Shown here piece by piece: positions 5,301 through 26,530 of a stretch of 30,731 bases of DNA (position 1 is its first letter; each line of letters opens with the position of its first letter). A program made the translations under genes and the position numbers. The stretch lies in IMG/VR virus record IMGVR_UViG_3300032308_000907, positions 1 through 30,731 of that record; one strand, written 5' to 3'. The notes beneath the pieces are model-generated. The model was given only the letters and a program-made list of their open reading frames with translations, had not been told where the DNA came from and did not search any database. This stretch comes from a virus.

Positions 5301-8300
5301 TTAAGCCTGAATTACGACTCTGTAAGTTTCTCCTGACGCAGGTGCTACTGCAAAGCTAATGGTAGCAGTAGTTGTTGTAATGTATTTAACATCTGTTACC
5401 ACTTCATTAGAAGTTGCTACCTCATATACAGAGACTTGGATGTCATATGTACCCAAATCGTGAGTAATTGTAAAGTCAGTTACACTGTATGGAGCTACTG
5501 GGGTAATAGTTGTTGCGTATTTAGTAACAACAACTGTTTTATCAATCTTAAGGCCGTTAGATGACTTAGAAAGTCCTGAAGCGGTATCAAGTTTTGCGCT
5601 AAATGTAGAACCAGTTAAATCAAGCCCATCACCAGCAAGGTACGTTCCAGCTCCTGAGAACTGTGTAAATGTTAGTGGTGTGGTGCCTAATGTTATTGAG
5701 TCATTTGTTGTAAGAACCCAGCCTGTGTTTCCATTGACTGTACCCTCGGATACGAAGGTAAATAGACCAGCAGTAACTTCTGCACTTAGATTTGCATCTT
5801 CTGCGCGGTTTGGTGCTCCCATACTCCTAACAACGTAAATACCATTTTGTGAAGCAGTTGACTGATTCTTAACGAGTATTCGGTCACCTGCTTGAAGATT
5901 TACTCCATCAAGTTCGCTTCCATCTTCAAGGTCGTTGCTCATGTTTACGTTAACAGTTGTTGCTAAACGTACTGATGCCTTAACATCTAATCCACTTGCA
6001 GTCGCATCAACATAAGCTTTAGTAGCAATTGTTGTAGTATCAACTGTAAGTTCGCCACCACCTGAAAGTGATAAACCAGAACCAACGCTTAAGATTCCAG
6101 CGTTCTGTCCTTGAATACCTTGAGTACCAGTGGTGCCCTGGGCTCCAGTGATGCCTTGGGCACCAGTTTCACCTTGCGCACCCGTTGTTCCCTGAGCACC
6201 AGTAGTACCTTGAGTACCAGTAGTACCTTGGGTTCCAGTCTCACCCTGAGCTCCAGTGAAACCTTGAGTTCCAGTCTCTCCTTGTGTACCAGTCTCGCCT
6301 TGTGCGCCTGTAGTACCTTGAGCTCCTGTGTAACCTTGTAGACCTTGAACTCCTTGTAGACCAGTTTCACCTTGCGCTCCAGTAATTCCTTGAGCACCAG
6401 TGTGTCCTTGAAGACCTTGCTCTCCTTGAATACCTTGTAGACCTTGAGCGCCTGTGGTTCCCTGAGCTCCTGTGTGACCTTGGAGACCTTGTGTTCCTTG
6501 TGCACCAGTAGTTCCTTGTGCACCAGTTTCACCTTGAGTACCTTGAATACCAACAGCACCAGATAGGTTAACTGTCCAGTAGTTAGTAGTACCCCCGTGT
6601 GTACCTGTTCCAACCTTTGATGTGCGTGTAAATGTAAGTTGACCTGTACCCGCGTTATACGCGCTAACAGTTCCGTATTGAATTTGTGTTAGGTCGTGGG
6701 CAATAGTGATGTCTTGACCAACTGAGTAGTCAACAGTTAAATCATTAAGAGTGATTGATGTTGAACCATTGTTACCAAGAGTTAATGAAGAATTAGATGT
6801 GGTTGAGTAACGGTCTCCATCAATACCTTGAATACCTTGGATACCCTGAGTACCAGTCTCTCCTTGCGCACCAGTGTAACCTTGTAGACCTTGAACTCCT
6901 TGTAGACCAGTTTCACCTTGCGCTCCAGTTGTGCCTTGCGCTCCTGTGTAACCTTGAAGTCCTTGTTCTCCTTGAATACCTTGAAGTCCTTGTGCGCCAG
7001 TTGTTCCTTGAGCACCAGTTTGTCCTTGTAGACCTTGAACTCCTTGAGTACCAGTTTCACCTTGAGTACCTGTTGTGCCTTGCGCACCAGTTGTACCTTG
7101 TGAGCCTGTTGTACCTTGTACGCCTTGTGCAGCAAGTAATGTCCAGAAAGTTCCTTCTGAAGGAGTGTCTCCAACATTGCCACCATTAGCATTTTTGCGG
7201 TACCAGGTTTGTCCTTCGTAAGTTGCTACGTCTCCAACCGCATATGGTAATCCCATATTGTAAGCGCCAGTAAAGTTCCATAGTGCATCCGCACCCTCAG
7301 TACCTTGTACACCTTGCGCACCAGTTGCGCCTTGAGCTCCAGTTGTACCTTGTGAACCATCGTTACCTTGTAAACCAATTTCTCCCTGAGCACCAGTTGT
7401 ACCTTGAGTACCTGTTGTACCTTGTGAGCCTGTATTTCCTTGAGTACCAGTTGTTCCCTGCGCACCAGTAGTTCCTTGAGCTCCTGTTGCACCCTGTACA
7501 CCAGTAGCACCATCAAGATTGATTGTCCAGTCTCCGTGGAATCCTGAACCAACTACGTCGTTAATATTTACAACAAGAGTGTTAGTGCCTGATGTGTAGC
7601 TTACAACTGTTGCAGACATATGGTTGTTTACATCATAAGCAATAACAATGTCTTGACCTACTGAGTATGAAAGGTCAGGGTCATTAAGAACAAATGAAAC
7701 GTTATTTGCTACCGCAATTGTGTAGTCAGTACCAGAAGTTGTCTTGTAACGGTCTGAGTGACCTTGAATACCCTGCGCACCAGTTTCACCCTGTGCTCCA
7801 GTAAATCCTTGAGCGCCTTCAAATCCTTGAAGTCCTTGTTCACCTTGTGTTCCAGTCTCACCCTGTGCACCAGTAGTACCCTGTGCACCAGTTTCACCCT
7901 GTGTACCTGTTGTGCCCTGTGCACCAGTTTCACCTTGTGTTCCAGTAGTTCCCTGTGCTCCAGTAAATCCTTGTGTTCCAGTAGTTCCCTGTGCTCCAGT
8001 AAATCCTTGTGCACCATCATTACCTTGAAGGCCAGTTTCACCTTGGGCGCCTGTAAAACCTTGTGTACCAGTTTCTCCCTGAGTTCCAGTAGTACCTTGT
8101 GCTCCAGTAACACCTTGAGTTCCAGTTGTTCCTTGAGTTCCAGTTGTGCCTTGAGCACCAGTTGTTCCTTGGGAACCGTTAGAACCATTAGCACCTTGTG
8201 CTCCTGTTGCGCCTTGCGCACCAGTGCTGGTATTAATCCAAGCCGTACCATTCCATGTACGTAAGTACTTAAGGGATGTGTCGTAATAAATCTGTCCTTC

Positions 8301-8396
8301 TACAGGATTTGCTGGTGCAGAAGCTAAGTTTTGAATTCGAGCATTTTGAAGCTCGAGCTTAGTTAAGTCAATCGGTGTTAAAAACTTACGTGCCAC
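5301..8396 (-). CDS. Large collagen-like tail fibre with beta modules and a receptor-tip domain
   Basis: 1031 residues from GTG at 8394-8396, with a strong AAAGGAGAT site. The head (1-58) resembles that of the 463-residue fibre. Gly-X-Y tracts at ~59-212, ~296-380 and two later stretches are interrupted by three folded inserts. Two are paralogous ~85-residue beta modules (each with SVGQDI followed by DWTINLDG or YWTVNLSG), the first at ~213-295. The third has a WNFTGAY...Y.GQTWYRKNA...P...FW pattern like chitin-binding CBM5/12 modules. Residues ~766-1031 form a non-collagen C-terminus with AYVDATASGLDVKASVR, AGDRILVKNQ and NGIYVV motifs that I recognise from other phage tail fibres. Its last ~55 residues resemble the end of the 154-residue protein. 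Likely the main receptor-binding fibre. Confidence 0.88.
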   Translation of the reverse strand: MARKFLTPIDLTKLELQNARIQNLASAPANPVEGQIYYDTSLKYLRTWNGTAWINTSTGAQGATGAQGANGSNGSQGTTGAQGTTGTQGTTGTQGVTGAQGTTGTQGETGTQGFTGAQGETGLQGNDGAQGFTGAQGTTGTQGFTGAQGTTGTQGETGAQGTTGTQGETGAQGTTGAQGETGTQGEQGLQGFEGAQGFTGAQGETGAQGIQGHSDRYKTTSGTDYTIAVANNVSFVLNDPDLSYSVGQDIVIAYDVNNHMSATVVSYTSGTNTLVVNINDVVGSGFHGDWTINLDGATGVQGATGAQGTTGAQGTTGTQGNTGSQGTTGTQGTTGAQGEIGLQGNDGSQGTTGAQGATGAQGVQGTEGADALWNFTGAYNMGLPYAVGDVATYEGQTWYRKNANGGNVGDTPSEGTFWTLLAAQGVQGTTGSQGTTGAQGTTGTQGETGTQGVQGLQGQTGAQGTTGAQGLQGIQGEQGLQGYTGAQGTTGAQGETGLQGVQGLQGYTGAQGETGTQGIQGIQGIDGDRYSTTSNSSLTLGNNGSTSITLNDLTVDYSVGQDITIAHDLTQIQYGTVSAYNAGTGQLTFTRTSKVGTGTHGGTTNYWTVNLSGAVGIQGTQGETGAQGTTGAQGTQGLQGHTGAQGTTGAQGLQGIQGEQGLQGHTGAQGITGAQGETGLQGVQGLQGYTGAQGTTGAQGETGTQGETGTQGFTGAQGETGTQGTTGTQGTTGAQGTTGAQGETGAQGITGAQGTTGTQGIQGQNAGILSVGSGLSLSGGGELTVDTTTIATKAYVDATASGLDVKASVRLATTVNVNMSNDLEDGSELDGVNLQAGDRILVKNQSTASQNGIYVVRSMGAPNRAEDANLSAEVTAGLFTFVSEGTVNGNTGWVLTTNDSITLGTTPLTFTQFSGAGTYLAGDGLDLTGSTFSAKLDTASGLSKSSNGLKIDKTVVVTKYATTITPVAPYSVTDFTITHDLGTYDIQVSVYEVATSNEVVTDVKYITTTTATISFAVAPASGETYRVVIQA

Positions 8397-20738: not shown

Positions 20739-21902
20739 CTATCTGAACAACACACTGGATAAATACGTGTCTGCCACAGCGTTATTGAACACTCCCTGTA
20801 ATCCTTGTAATCCTTGTAATCCTTGAGTACCTTGAGAACCTGTAAATCCTTGAGTTCCTTGTAGCTGTGAGTAACCAAAACCTTGAATACCTTGAGTACC
20901 AGTATTTCCTTGAGTACCTTGAGAACCTGTAAATCCTTGAGTTCCTTGTAACTGTTCATAACCAAAACCTTGAATACCTTGAGTACCAGTATTTCCCTGA
21001 GCACCTTGCAAGCCAGTTGTACCTTGAGAACCTGTTATACCTTGAGTACCCTGCGCTCCAACGGTACCCTGTGTACCAGTTGCTCCCTGAACACCTTGAG
21101 CTCCTGTAGCCCCCTGTACCCCAGTATTACCTTGCGTTCCAGTTGAGCCTTGGGTACCAATATTTCCTTGAATACCTTGAGAACCAGTCGTACCTTGAAC
21201 TCCTTGTAAACCTTGTGTGCCCTGTGTACCTTGTGAACCAGTGAAGCCTTGTATTCCATAAACGCCTTGAGTTCCTTGGATACCTTGTGTTCCCTGAGTT
21301 CCTTGAGCGCCAGTAGGCCCTTGAACGCTTAATGTGTTTGTCCAATAAGGTGTTGTTCCGTTACTAGCCAAAATAAAATTATTAGAACCAATACCTAAGC
21401 GCGTTACCGAGCCAACACCATTACCTACAATTAAATCACCAACAGAGGTGACTGTGGAAAGATTAACATTTCCAGAAGCTATTCCTATAAAGTTTCCGTC
21501 TTTGTTAATAAAAGAAACTACTGTTCCGTCAGAAAGCTGCCATTCTTGTAAATTAGCTGTTTGGTCAGACCTTGCTTTTACAACAAGTCCCTTTACCCCA
21601 GAACCTGATGGGGTAATTACGTTACCAGAATCTGCGTTTTTTCTAAGATATTGGGTATGTGAATCAGAAACAATACCAGTTTCAATATTAGCAATTCGGT
21701 CTTTTAAAGTTAAATACGTGGATGAAGACGCGTTAAACGTACCACTTGGGTTTGGTGTTGTAGAGGTAGATGGGTCTGTTCCAACAATTGTTTCAATAGC
21801 TACAACTTCACTTTGAATATTATTTGGATGCGCCGCATCAATAATATCAGTAATATTTACGTGGGTTGGAAATAGCGCTACTTGGGAAGGATAGGATGCC
21901 AT
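20739..21902 (-). CDS. Collagen-like fibre protein
   Basis: 387 residues from ATG at 21900-21902, with AAAGGA seven bases upstream. Residues 1-193 are a mixed-fold head (PSQVALFPTHVNITDIIDAA, KDRIANIETGIVSDSHTQYL, LVVKARSDQTANLQEW) that resembles heads of phage structural fibres carrying a small fibre domain. Residues ~194-370 are Gly-X-Y repeats, dominated by GTQ, GIQ and GPT. Inside them, two copies of a 29-residue unit with FGY-Q-LQ stand out as an interruption of the triplet rhythm. The tip is short (VFNNAVADTYLSSVLFR). It lies far from the other collagen genes, on the other side of the head module, so it may form a distinct fibre. Confidence 0.85.
   Translation of the reverse strand: MASYPSQVALFPTHVNITDIIDAAHPNNIQSEVVAIETIVGTDPSTSTTPNPSGTFNASSSTYLTLKDRIANIETGIVSDSHTQYLRKNADSGNVITPSGSGVKGLVVKARSDQTANLQEWQLSDGTVVSFINKDGNFIGIASGNVNLSTVTSVGDLIVGNGVGSVTRLGIGSNNFILASNGTTPYWTNTLSVQGPTGAQGTQGTQGIQGTQGVYGIQGFTGSQGTQGTQGLQGVQGTTGSQGIQGNIGTQGSTGTQGNTGVQGATGAQGVQGATGTQGTVGAQGTQGITGSQGTTGLQGAQGNTGTQGIQGFGYEQLQGTQGFTGSQGTQGNTGTQGIQGFGYSQLQGTQGFTGSQGTQGLQGLQGLQGVFNNAVADTYLSSVLFR
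20834..21007 (-). repeat. 87-bp tandem duplication inside the collagen stalk
   Basis: Two adjacent 87-base units (20834-20920 and 20921-21007) differ at roughly six positions. Each encodes 29 residues with a GFGY-Q-LQG kink followed by regular triplets. It is an in-frame duplication that lengthens the stalk. Confidence 0.85.
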
Positions 21903-22955: not shown

Positions 22956-23043
22956 GTTCTGCCCACCAACACCCAAGGAGTGTTACCGCAACCAAAGTTG
23001 CGATAAACACCCCCTGAAATGTGATGTGAGTCAGGTAGTACAT
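22948..23043 (-). CDS. Micro-gene: 31-residue membrane peptide
   Basis: The ATG at 23041-23043 overlaps the endolysin stop as TAATG. Almost the whole peptide is one membrane helix (GVFIATLVAVTLLGCWWAER). Its position directly after the endolysin makes it a candidate pinholin, antiholin or lysis modulator. Small coupled membrane peptides also occur in phages without a lysis function. Confidence 0.6.
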   Translation of the reverse strand: MYYLTHITFQGVFIATLVAVTLLGCWWAERG

Positions 23044-23597
23044 TATTTACCGCAGGTAGGGCACTTAGCTGCTGCTTTTGTTTTTGCAGCGGGTGCGGCA
23101 CCAAACTTAGGACGACCAAAGCCAACAATAGAAATCATTACCTTTTTAGGATTCTTCTTATAAGCACGGAGCTTCTTTGAAACCTGTCCGCCATTTCTTT
23201 GGCTTCCCTTTTCATCTGGACTAGTATTACCTTCAATGCACCAAACAGTACCATCGCCATTGTCTTTGATAACAATACCTACGTGAGAGATTCTATCGAC
23301 CCCATCTGATGGGAAATCAAAATAGGCTATATCTCCAACATCTGGGTCTGCAATGTCTGCATCAATCCATGCCCCAGCTTTCTTAAATGCGGCTGCTCCG
23401 CCTGGTGTGTAGACGGTATTAGGCACCTTTACACCAGCCTCATTAGCGCACCAGTTTACAAAAGACCCACACCATGGCTGAAAGTTAGCCTTTGTGTAGG
23501 CGCCGTACTTTGTTTCATTATCTTTAGGGCCTTCAATAGTTCCCAGTTCTGCTGTAGCAACTTCAATAAGTTTAGCTGCTGTTCCTTTGTCTGACAT
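23043..23597 (-). CDS. CHAP-domain endolysin
   Basis: 184 residues from ATG at 23595-23597, overlapping the upstream TAA as TAATG. The CHAP (cysteine/histidine amidase-peptidase) fold spans ~10-155: YGAYTKANFQPWCGSFVNWC holds the nucleophile Cys43, RISHVGIVI the His105, and WCIEGNTS the third acidic or amide residue (Glu122/Asn124). It cuts peptide or amide bonds in peptidoglycan to release progeny. There is no signal peptide, so it needs the holin-like proteins encoded just upstream. The C-terminus is an Ala/Lys-rich linker ending in a CPTC pair, which is unusual and could be a remnant or half zinc site. No separate wall-binding domain is present. Confidence 0.92.
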   Translation of the reverse strand: MSDKGTAAKLIEVATAELGTIEGPKDNETKYGAYTKANFQPWCGSFVNWCANEAGVKVPNTVYTPGGAAAFKKAGAWIDADIADPDVGDIAYFDFPSDGVDRISHVGIVIKDNGDGTVWCIEGNTSPDEKGSQRNGGQVSKKLRAYKKNPKKVMISIVGFGRPKFGAAPAAKTKAAAKCPTCGK

Positions 23598-23962
23598 TAC
23601 TTGTTCCAATCTTCATCTACTGGACGCTCTTCTGGAACTTGTCCGTCGGGCTTGTTTATAGTTGGTGCAATAGTTACTGCAACGCCTGATTGATTAGCTT
23701 CAACCTGCAAGTCAGCTGCTGTTTTTGAATTTACATCAACTGCAGCAAAAGCTGAGTTAACTTCATCTAATGAAAGCTTGCCGTCATTCATAAATCCACG
23801 CGCTAGTTTTTCTACTACTGCAGCAACGGCTGTAAGACCAGCTACTGTTACTGCTGTTATTGTGTCAACTCCAGCGATAGCACCTGCACCGATTACTGAA
23901 AGACCGCTAGCGGCAAATGTTGCAACTATACGGAGCAGAATATTTCCTGATGTCTTAAACAT
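23597..23962 (-). CDS. Holin-like protein with EF-hand-like tail
   Basis: 121 residues from ATG at 23960-23962, overlapping the upstream TAA as TAATG. Two hydrophobic helices lie at ~8-31 (ILLRIVATFAASGLSVIGAG) and ~35-53 (ITAVTVAGLTAVAAVV). The soluble tail contains NDGKLSLDEVNSAFAAVD, an EF-hand-loop-like motif also repeated in the secreted Pro-rich protein two genes upstream. A polar acidic tail ends the protein. Two membrane helices followed directly by the endolysin gene make it the main holin candidate. The motif could instead be a small helical repeat without calcium. Confidence 0.75.
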   Translation of the reverse strand: MFKTSGNILLRIVATFAASGLSVIGAGAIAGVDTITAVTVAGLTAVAAVVEKLARGFMNDGKLSLDEVNSAFAAVDVNSKTAADLQVEANQSGVAVTIAPTINKPDGQVPEERPVDEDWNK

Positions 23963-24114
23963 TATTCCTCATCCTTTGGGTTTCTTAGTGGGTAGGTAAT
24001 GGCCCAAACTGCAAGAGTTGCAATAATTGCATAGCCAACTACTGTCTTTGCTGAGCCATCTAGTACTACCCATGCAATGAACATGCCAAGCAGTGTCCAT
24101 AGTTGTTCAATCAT
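23962..24114 (-). CDS. Small two-helix membrane protein, second holin candidate
   Basis: 50 residues from ATG at 24112-24114, with AAGAGA before it, 14 bases after the upstream stop. Two membrane helices are clear (LWTLLGMFIAWVVLDG and VVGYAIIATLAVWAITY) with a short charged tail ending NPKDEE. The TAA overlaps the next start as TAATG. Paired small membrane genes upstream of an endolysin are common in actinophages, where one acts as the holin and the other as antiholin or co-holin. Confidence 0.75.
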   Translation of the reverse strand: MIEQLWTLLGMFIAWVVLDGSAKTVVGYAIIATLAVWAITYPLRNPKDEE

Positions 24115-24128
24115 GTCTCTTATAACTC

Positions 24129-26303
24129 TCACGGTTTACGTCTCCTATATCCTTTTGATTCACCAGAAGCGCCTCCGCCTCCAGAACTTCCTCCGCTACT
24201 CCCAGAACCACCAGATGTTCCAGTGGCTCCCGCAGCAGCAGCTACAGCGTTAATGGCGGCACTTCCCGCAATAACTGCAGCAACTACCATTTTTTCTGCT
24301 TCTTCACGTTCTTCAGTGGACATGTCAGCACCGATACTTCCAAGTGCTTGCAGGGCTTGACTAGGGTCATCAAATATTGCGCCAAGTAACTCCGCAGGAT
24401 TCTCTAGTAGCACAAGGGCTGCGGCAACGTCTGCTGTAATTATAACTTCATTACCATTTTCATCCTGCCTAACCTCTACAGGAGTCTCTGGTGGAAGGTC
24501 TTGGTATGCAATGCCAGCGTCTTGAATTTGTTCTTTTGTAAGTGTTTCGCCCTCTGCTACGGAAGCAATCAAAGCTTCGGCAACCAATTCTTTTTCAGCA
24601 GTAGTTAAGTTACCATCAGAGGCTAGTGCTTCAGAGAGGGCAGATACTTCTTCTTTAGTAACTTCCCCATCAGCATTTAAAGCTTCCATAACCTTGTCAG
24701 CATCGGCAGCTGAAAGCTTGCCATCAGATAAAACAGCTTCTACCGCAGCGGTAGCCTCTTCGGCGGGTGTGGTAGTATTTGGCGCAGGTTCTTCAATAGG
24801 AGGTTCTAATGGTTCTGTGGACGGATTTTCTTGCTCTGGCTCTGGTGACTCTGGTTCTGGTGTTGATTCCTCGGGTGTATCGACTTCCGCAGGAGGCTCC
24901 TCAGGTTCTACGGGTAACGCTTCGGGTTCTACCGCTGGTGGTTGGGGTTCTATGGGTTGTTCTGGCTCTTCTGTGGGAGGCTCAGTAGGTGTTGGTTCAG
25001 GAATTACAACGGGTGGTTCAATCTCTGCAGGAGGCTCAGGAACTGGTATTGGACTTGGCTCAAGAGCAGGTACGGGTTCTGGGTCTGGCTGCTGCTCAGG
25101 TTCAGTCCCTGGTTGAGGCTGAGGGACAGGAATAGGCAATGGGTCAGGAATTGGGTCAGGAGATGGCTGTGGAGACGGCTCAGGCCTTGGAACGGGCTGC
25201 ACAGAAGGCTCTGGAGAAGGCGTTACAGAAGTCTCGGGAGAAGGAGAAGGAATAGGTAATGGAGTTGGTTGCGGTGTCGGTTCTGGTGTTGGGGTTGGGC
25301 CTGGTGTTGGGTTATTGCTCGGCTCTACCGAGGGTGAAGGTGTTGGAGAAGGCTCTCGTGAAGGCTCGGGCGCGGGAGTCGGACTTGGAGATGGCTCTGG
25401 ATTACCAGATGGCGAAGGCGATGGGGAGGGACTAGGTAATGGTTGAGCAGATTCTGTTGGGGTTGGCGTTGGGCTTGGGCTTGGTGCTGGTGGTGTGGTT
25501 GGAGAGGGTGAAGGCAACGGCAAAGGAGAGGGCTCATTACTTGGATTTGAGGAAGGACTCTCGCTTGGCGCAGGAGCTATCTCTTCGGCGGTTACAACAG
25601 GAGCAACATAAACGCGAGTCAAACCAGCCTCTTCAAGACTAACAACTCGTCCATCAGGTAGTCTTACACCCGTTCTAGTATTAAGTCCTGATTGAACATC
25701 TGAGAGATAAGTAATAGTAAGAGTGCTATCTGGATTGATAGCTGCGGTAACAACAATAGTAGATAGAGGATTAGCAGAAGCATTTTGTCCATAAGGGCGA
25801 ACAGCTAAATTAACTTGAAATCCTGCTTGACTAGAGGTAATAATTAAGTGCTCATCCGCTGCGCGCCATCCAGCTGGATATGAGTTAGATGGATTTGGAT
25901 TATTAGGGTTAAGAACTACCCAGTCATAGGCGTTTACTGAGATAGAGGTAGTGCGAGGAAAGTTAGCAAAGTCATTATCTTGACGGCCAAAAACAATAGT
26001 TGAGTTTGTTGTGGCATAGACTGCTGTGTAGTCAGTTCCTTGAAAATTAACTGCGGTAGGGAGGGCTACTTGATAAGAGACGTCATCCCCACCGCAAGTA
26101 TTTTGAACTAATACTGCAGTAGCTGTTGTTGTTTCTCCAGGCTGTGACACCGTTGTATTTAAAACGGTAGGGGCGGTTGCTGCTGCAGCTATGGATTGCG
26201 CAGTTGTTACACAAGTTGCCTGTGCTGATGTTGCGAATAGTAAAGGAAAGAAAGAAGCAGATAATGCTACGGATAATGCTGCGAGTAAACGCAGTTTCTT
26301 TAT
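24129..26303 (-). CDS. Secreted, Pro-rich surface protein with apparent ATA start
   Basis: About 724 residues. The only standard start (GTG at 26148-26150) would skip a textbook signal peptide encoded upstream in the same open frame: KKLRLLAALSVALSASFFPL, then an AxA site at TSAQA. The reading is open to a stop at about 26321 and contains no ATG, GTG or TTG before that peptide; ATA at 26301-26303, preceded by GGGAGAG about nine bases away, gives IKKLRLL. After cleavage come a beta-rich ~200-residue domain, ~240 residues of Pro/Ser then Pro/Glu repeats (PSPSPTPTPT style, a wall-spanning linker), EF-hand-like helical repeats (SDGKLSAADADKVMEALNAD), a hydrophobic helix (MVVAAVIAGSAAINAVAAAA), Gly/Ser tract and a YRRRKP tail. 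It precedes the lysis genes. Function unknown; surface or lysis-related. Confidence 0.75.
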   Translation of the reverse strand: MKKLRLLAALSVALSASFFPLLFATSAQATCVTTAQSIAAAATAPTVLNTTVSQPGETTTATAVLVQNTCGGDDVSYQVALPTAVNFQGTDYTAVYATTNSTIVFGRQDNDFANFPRTTSISVNAYDWVVLNPNNPNPSNSYPAGWRAADEHLIITSSQAGFQVNLAVRPYGQNASANPLSTIVVTAAINPDSTLTITYLSDVQSGLNTRTGVRLPDGRVVSLEEAGLTRVYVAPVVTAEEIAPAPSESPSSNPSNEPSPLPLPSPSPTTPPAPSPSPTPTPTESAQPLPSPSPSPSPSGNPEPSPSPTPAPEPSREPSPTPSPSVEPSNNPTPGPTPTPEPTPQPTPLPIPSPSPETSVTPSPEPSVQPVPRPEPSPQPSPDPIPDPLPIPVPQPQPGTEPEQQPDPEPVPALEPSPIPVPEPPAEIEPPVVIPEPTPTEPPTEEPEQPIEPQPPAVEPEALPVEPEEPPAEVDTPEESTPEPESPEPEQENPSTEPLEPPIEEPAPNTTTPAEEATAAVEAVLSDGKLSAADADKVMEALNADGEVTKEEVSALSEALASDGNLTTAEKELVAEALIASVAEGETLTKEQIQDAGIAYQDLPPETPVEVRQDENGNEVIITADVAAALVLLENPAELLGAIFDDPSQALQALGSIGADMSTEEREEAEKMVVAAVIAGSAAINAVAAAAGATGTSGGSGSSGGSSGGGGASGESKGYRRRKP

Positions 26304-26338
26304 TTTAGTCTCTCTCCCGTGAGGTTAAGACTAGTTTA

Positions 26339-26530
26339 TCAAACTAAAATTAATTCGTCAGGGTCATAGATAGAAATAGATTTGTTAATAATAGGTTTTG
26401 CTAGCACACGTGCATGATGACCGCAAAACATTAACTCACCATTAAGGAATGTAACAATAACTTTTGCAGCGGCGCCACAAGAATCACAGCGGTCAAGAGC
26501 GGTTACAGCTCGCTCAGAGACCTCATTCAT
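26339..26530 (-). CDS. DUF7455-like zinc-ribbon protein
   Basis: 63 residues from ATG at 26528-26530, two bases after the upstream TAG. It shows C15-x2-C18 (DRCDSCGAAAKV) and C36-x-H38-H39 (LMFCGHHARVL), followed by a short helix and DPDEL. The spacing and the CDSCG...FCGHH signature match the DUF7455 type of small proteins, known chiefly from Actinobacteria and their phages. Function is unknown. It is the best host indicator in the window. The 36-base gap to the secreted protein's start holds that gene's ribosome site. Confidence 0.75.
   Translation of the reverse strand: MNEVSERAVTALDRCDSCGAAAKVIVTFLNGELMFCGHHARVLAKPIINKSISIYDPDELILV

Follow-up and report, generated by a model that had tools for sequence, protein, structure and literature searches.

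Judging from the alignment of 87 relatives, the phage gene described here, which encodes an exported protein, very probably starts at an AUA codon, and the pattern is, with the same high probability, specific to this one gene. The window, meaning the whole stretch of DNA that was analysed, comprises the 30,731 nucleotides of IMG/VR virus record IMGVR_UViG_3300032308_000907. Comparison of its sequence with those of relatives shows where the start lies, that it recurs, that it is restricted to one gene and that the codon goes with the strength of the Shine-Dalgarno (SD) site. The pattern is thus family-wide, gene-specific and linked to SD strength, which lay beyond the view of a first-pass annotation made from the letters of the window. 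The gene and its surroundings comprise the following features.

26339-26530, minus: upstream gene, encoding a small DUF7455 protein (PF24254, 6e-18) and ending 35 nt before the AUA
26333-26338, minus: possible promoter -10 element TAAACT, 29 nt before the start, a consensus match only, from inspection of aligned upstream regions
26314-26318, minus: SD site GGGAG (anti-SD duplex -7.4 kcal/mol)
26301-26303, minus: putative AUA start codon, from the aligned codon across 87 relatives
24129-26303, minus: exported-protein open reading frame (ORF), with its stop at 24129-24131
26217-26303, minus: signal peptide IKKLRLLAALSVALSASFFPLLFATSAQA, from translation; conserved in relatives with different outer domains
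26148-26150, minus: first standard start codon, a GTG at codon 51, downstream of the signal peptide and unconserved in relatives
25569-26216, minus: outer domain with two cysteines invariant in the alignment (C5 and C44 of alignment A2)
24759-25568, minus: stalk of about 270 residues rich in Pro, Ser and Glu, from translation
24264-24749, minus: conserved C-terminal domain, a relative of which is encoded by 308 candidate stretches in viral contigs
24132-24290, minus: C-terminal hydrophobic segment (MVVAAVIAGSAAINAVAAAAGA), Gly/Ser linker and basic end RRRKP, from translation
23962-24132, minus: next gene, a small hydrophobic protein with a GTG start that overlaps the exported-protein stop, from the sequence
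23597-23962, minus: holin-like small membrane protein (weak matches to r1t-holin in Pfam and to holin phrog_443)
23043-23609, minus: CHAP-domain endolysin (PF05257, 6e-11; phrog_21357 endolysin, 2e-26)

The minus-strand frame of the exported protein is bounded by a TAA just upstream of 26324 and translates as PHGRETK-IKKLRLLAALSVALSASFFPLLFATSAQA-TC..., with no ATG, GTG or TTG before the GTG at codon 51. The first-pass annotation had described exactly this, a signal peptide lying in frame upstream of the first standard start, in a segment devoid of all three standard codons, and it reads from the AUA as claimed. It had also placed a good ribosome-binding site at the right distance from the ATA. 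The site itself stands, GGGAG being strong, while its spacing of 10 nt is at the long end of the range; among relatives carrying AAGGAG the aligned spacing is mostly 4-6 nt. The window therefore has the marks of a near-cognate start, namely a codon other than AUG, GUG or UUG and a strong SD at a working distance, kept in relatives. Near relatives carry TATAAT or TATACT at the place of the possible -10 element. As had been foreseen for standard gene callers, an ORF finder restricted to ATG, GTG and TTG places the start at 26150 and misses the export signal.

To place the start independently of such callers, we gathered relatives by protein searches of viral contigs with the full protein (80 loci), the outer domain (42) and the C-terminal domain (the best 80 of 308 relatives), and added a start-codon-blind DNA-pattern search whose pattern (CTGCGYNTANTCGCAGCA) sets in three codons into the signal peptide. 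Once loci had been pooled, identical 5' ends collapsed and a match to the window's N or C domain required, there were 87 distinct, homology-confirmed 5' ends from public viral contigs, gathered mainly without regard to the start codon. The aligned codon is ATA in 32 of them, TTG in 26, ATG in 18, ATT in 5, ATC in 3, GTG in 2 and GTA in 1. The comparison of homologues that the first-pass annotation had called for hence gives AUN in 40/87 and ATG, GTG or TTG in 46/87, and the 32 distinct viral 5' ends with ATA support its proposal that AUA itself initiates. On this alignment, near-cognate starts account for about half of the family. A canonical or AUN codon stands at the aligned position in 86/87 and such a peak occurs only there: codon positions upstream hold 0-11 AUN codons, and those downstream (31 at +5 and 19 at +10) are ordinary Ile codons. 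When the same pattern was run against bacterial genomes as a control, it returned chance hits only, with random codons at that place. In the lineage of L056 and L228 the start position holds GTA, and the near-identical relative L245 has ATA.

The coding signature changes at the same point. Stop codons are frequent upstream of the aligned codon and absent from the 12 codons downstream in all 87 relatives. Among AUN members, substitutions by codon position run 590:292:705 downstream and 466:433:495 upstream (the pairs are not independent), so they follow codon positions downstream and do not upstream, which we count in favour of an AUN start. In the stretch that leads from the upstream stop to the AUN codon, nearly all AUN members lack any canonical start, and their first canonical codon downstream falls anywhere from codon 3 to codon 261. 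The GTG of codon 51 is not conserved among the homologues, whose consistent start there would have spoken for a standard start. A further subgroup of three relatives (L134, L142 and probably L014) appears to start at CTG, with an SD of -9.0 and a layout like that of AUN and UUG members; in L134 and L142 canonical codons appear only inside the core of the signal peptide.

The choice of codon is tied to the SD. A duplex of -5.5 kcal/mol or stronger precedes the start in 38/40 AUN and 26/26 TTG members and in 3/18 ATG members, compared with 0% of background codons inside the gene. For AUN against ATG the Fisher p is 3e-9, a value that overstates the case because the sequences are related. Mean SD energies (kcal/mol) are -8.4 for ATA, -7.7 for ATT, -6.9 for ATC, -7.8 for TTG and -2.1 for ATG, and AUN and UUG members have in common a leader laid out as SD, short spacer and start. 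Members starting at ATG mostly lack an SD and often carry a TANNNT box 8-10 nt upstream of the ATG, sometimes right after a terminator-like hairpin (SD-less or TANNNT leaders: L204, L133, L136, L144, L153, L156, L157, L221 and L275). From their sequence, several of the SD-less ATG members may be candidates for leaderless messages. A trade-off between strong SD with weak codon and no SD with AUG is suggestive only, because actinobacteria can translate leaderless messages with an AUG start efficiently. Perfect inverted repeats of differing sequence (for example CTAAACTAG...CTAGTTTAG), which may be operators or hairpins, abut the SD in three AUN members (L241, L148 and L247) and one TTG member (L248). 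A conserved hairpin before the SD was rejected as a general feature, with a mean z of -0.18 over 21 AUN leaders.

To assess gene specificity we then scanned 438 kb, made up of 40 loci that each include an AUN-start member. An AUN or CUG codon that has a strong SD and precedes every canonical start was found in 30/34 focal ORFs and in 18/413 other ORFs, compared with 33/413 other ORFs for control codons. Since such codons are no commoner than controls in the other ORFs, a general habit of these phages was rejected; on this count the near-cognate habit belongs to the exported-protein gene and not to its neighbours. The focal gene is an outlier in each of two long phage contigs (99.9 and 78.7 kb), its first canonical codon lying 69 and 161 codons into the frame, while in the other candidates of both contigs a canonical start mostly follows one or two codons later; for two candidates in the 78.7 kb contig, one near 23.2 kb and one near 76.0 kb, it follows after 5 and 18 codons. 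A possible further AUN-start gene is L448 (G004:C1, about 76005-76356, plus strand), where ATT with an SD of -9.8 precedes the first canonical start by 18 codons. Decoding by a special initiator tRNA of the phage (anticodon UAU) was also rejected as an explanation, there being no tRNA in the window and only Asn, Gly and Gln tRNAs in the contigs of the two long relatives.

On a tree of 75 C-terminal domains no fewer than 14 changes of the AUN label are required, and strongly supported branches force at least 7 of them, which indicates that weak starts come and go by substitution or by exchange of 5' ends. These counts, which record changes at the locus and not necessarily point mutations, may be inflated where 5' end and C domain have recombined.

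Read from the AUA, the protein has 724 residues and, across the full length, no family above cut-off in Pfam, NCBIfam or PHROGs. Its N-terminus has the sequence features of a signal peptide (IKKLR-LLAALSVALSASFFPLLF-ATSAQA), that is, a basic n-region, a hydrophobic core and an A-x-A motif, which are found in relatives too. The outer domain has no Pfam or PDB match and its structure model is unreliable (pLDDT 38); its two invariant cysteines fit an exported protein. The C-terminal domain is strongly conserved, is modelled at pLDDT 68 overall and 80-91 over most of residues 20-120, is predicted to be helical with a short beta hairpin, and has no PDB match at E <= 0.001. A TerB-like assignment was discarded, PF05099 scoring 13.7 bits against a cut-off of 24.4 and weakly in 16/50 members. 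The same C-terminal domain occurs in the uncultured Caudovirales phage proteins A0A6J5NEV5 (labelled TerB_like) and A0A6J5NGG5, at 79% and 45% identity (Foldseek match). The hydrophobic segment and basic end recur in relatives and are modelled with low confidence; from its sequence, this tail with its RRRKP end is a possible membrane anchor, and the protein would sit on the cell surface. Outer domains vary across the family. SUEL (galactoside/rhamnose-binding) lectin matches were found in L206, L137 and L231, the AUC-start L206 scoring 37.7 bits for SUEL_Lectin against a cut-off of 31.4, and A0A6J5NGG5 has a lectin-type outer part with a SUEL domain; the window protein has no Pfam SUEL_Lectin match, and a SUEL lectin was rejected for it.

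The small hydrophobic protein downstream has no Pfam match. The best PHROG for the holin-like protein is labelled 'nuclease' (phrog_26427), a label we consider doubtful because the protein is small, hydrophobic and among lysis-gene neighbours. Elsewhere in the window, the genes at 5301-8396 and 20739-21902 match tail-fibre and collagen-like minor tail families repeatedly. The nearest named phages are the Streptomyces phages BRock, LuckySocke, Alone3, GiJojo and pSt2308 (capsid about 72%, terminase about 54%). Since capsid and terminase resemble those of the BRock group, an actinobacterial host is likely. No gene of this kind is annotated in the stretches of BRock and LuckySocke that were viewed, and the collection of named phages gave no blastn match and no tblastn match to the C domain.

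Given these results, we consider it on balance probable that the near-cognate codon and the strong SD are kept together to hold output of the exported protein low. The gene would be transcribed from its own or an upstream promoter, and the strong SD would recruit ribosomes that initiate at the AUA with reduced efficiency, the codon being read by the ordinary initiator tRNA as fMet. The product would then be exported by the infected, probably actinobacterial, host. On this reading, which infers both the low yield of AUA in that host and the selection keeping it low, near-cognate codon and strong SD have been kept, or regained repeatedly, in one gene. The members that use UUG, or AUG behind an SD, show that the family can do without a near-cognate start, which argues against a low-output purpose.

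Some alternatives concern what the weak start is for. It is unlikely, if conceivable, that inefficient, IF3-sensitive initiation is itself the conserved regulatory element, with the codon turning over among AUA, AUU, AUC, CUG and UUG and display of the protein coupled to the ribosome or IF3 state late in infection. Slightly less probable is regulation in which AUN and CUG initiation responds to IF3 or to the state of the ribosome during infection and so times a surface protein. AUA, AUU, AUC and CUG form the class that IF3 discriminates, as for E. coli infC and pcnB, and the exported-protein gene adjoins lysis genes. Output from the AUA start of Staphylococcus aureus ccpN varies with the medium (PMC13009471). 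UUG and AUG members of the family, however, should not respond in this manner. We give the same low probability to neutrality, whereby any AUN codon would function well behind a strong SD and the codon drifts: AUN does interchange with UUG and AUG on the tree and the SD sites are strong, but drift should also hit other genes of the same loci, many of them with a strong SD, where the pattern is absent.

Other alternatives concern where translation starts. Initiation at the in-frame CTG at 26292-26294, three codons inside from the ATA, with the AUN codon part of the leader, was an option of the first-pass annotation that we now regard as very improbable. CUG is a known near-cognate start, CTG stands at that place in 78/87 relatives, and a subgroup does appear to start at CTG, albeit at another position. 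From this CTG, however, the SD would be 12 nt too far; the codon is CTA in L042 and L171, CAG in L127 and TTG in some relatives, the CTA and CAG cases having the same ATA and SD; the aligned codon upstream of it is itself ATG, GTG or TTG in 46 relatives; and CTG-CGY, which encodes a Leu-Arg pair in the signal peptide, is conserved also among members that start at ATG or TTG. It had further been suggested that an ATG was altered by mutation or base-calling error in one virus, ATA being one base from the ATG that 18 relatives have, but near-cognate starts in about half of the family rule this out for practical purposes, since 32 distinct ATA 5' ends, along with ATT and ATC ones, come from numerous separate contigs and have SD sites resembling those of UUG members, and ATG members mostly have a different, SD-less leader. 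Frameshifting into the signal peptide from an upstream start is just as implausible, as some relatives do have an ATG mini-ORF in the leader (ATGTTAAAGTAT...) but the leader in the window, from the stop of the upstream gene to the AUA, lacks ATG in every frame, and the mini-ORFs, missing from most relatives, differ in frame and end point, for which reason coupling to this element was likewise rejected.

Only a few bacterial genes are known to have near-cognate AUN starts, with one conserved codon each. In E. coli, infC and pcnB start at AUU and, like the phage gene, combine a near-cognate AUN start with a strong SD and conservation beyond one species. These two, along with ccpN and cvfC1 of S. 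aureus, are cytoplasmic cell regulators or enzymes with a fixed codon, whereas the window gene encodes an exported phage protein and its family alternates among AUA, AUU, AUC, CUG, UUG and AUG. The likeness in start, SD and conservation extends to ccpN and cvfC1 (PMC13009471). In S. aureus, AUA starts (infC, ccpN and citZ) and an AUU start (cvfC1) with extended SD sites were mapped by ribosome profiling, and reporter constructs for ccpN, citZ and cvfC1 reached about 10% of the output seen with AUG, rising to 30% for ccpN in rich medium (PMC13009471). Searches of open-licence PMC papers turned up no phage family described as having AUN starts, so while near-cognate starts as such are already known, a recurrent, interchangeable pattern confined to one phage gene appears undescribed in that literature.

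Start codon and SD vary naturally within the phage family, in dozens of variants that could be compared to learn why evolution retains a weak start. Callers that accept only ATG, GTG and TTG would cut off the signal peptide, so that such proteins would be filed as cytoplasmic and their export and role at the surface missed. A search of phage genomes for a strong SD, an AUN codon and a signal peptide may reveal more cases.
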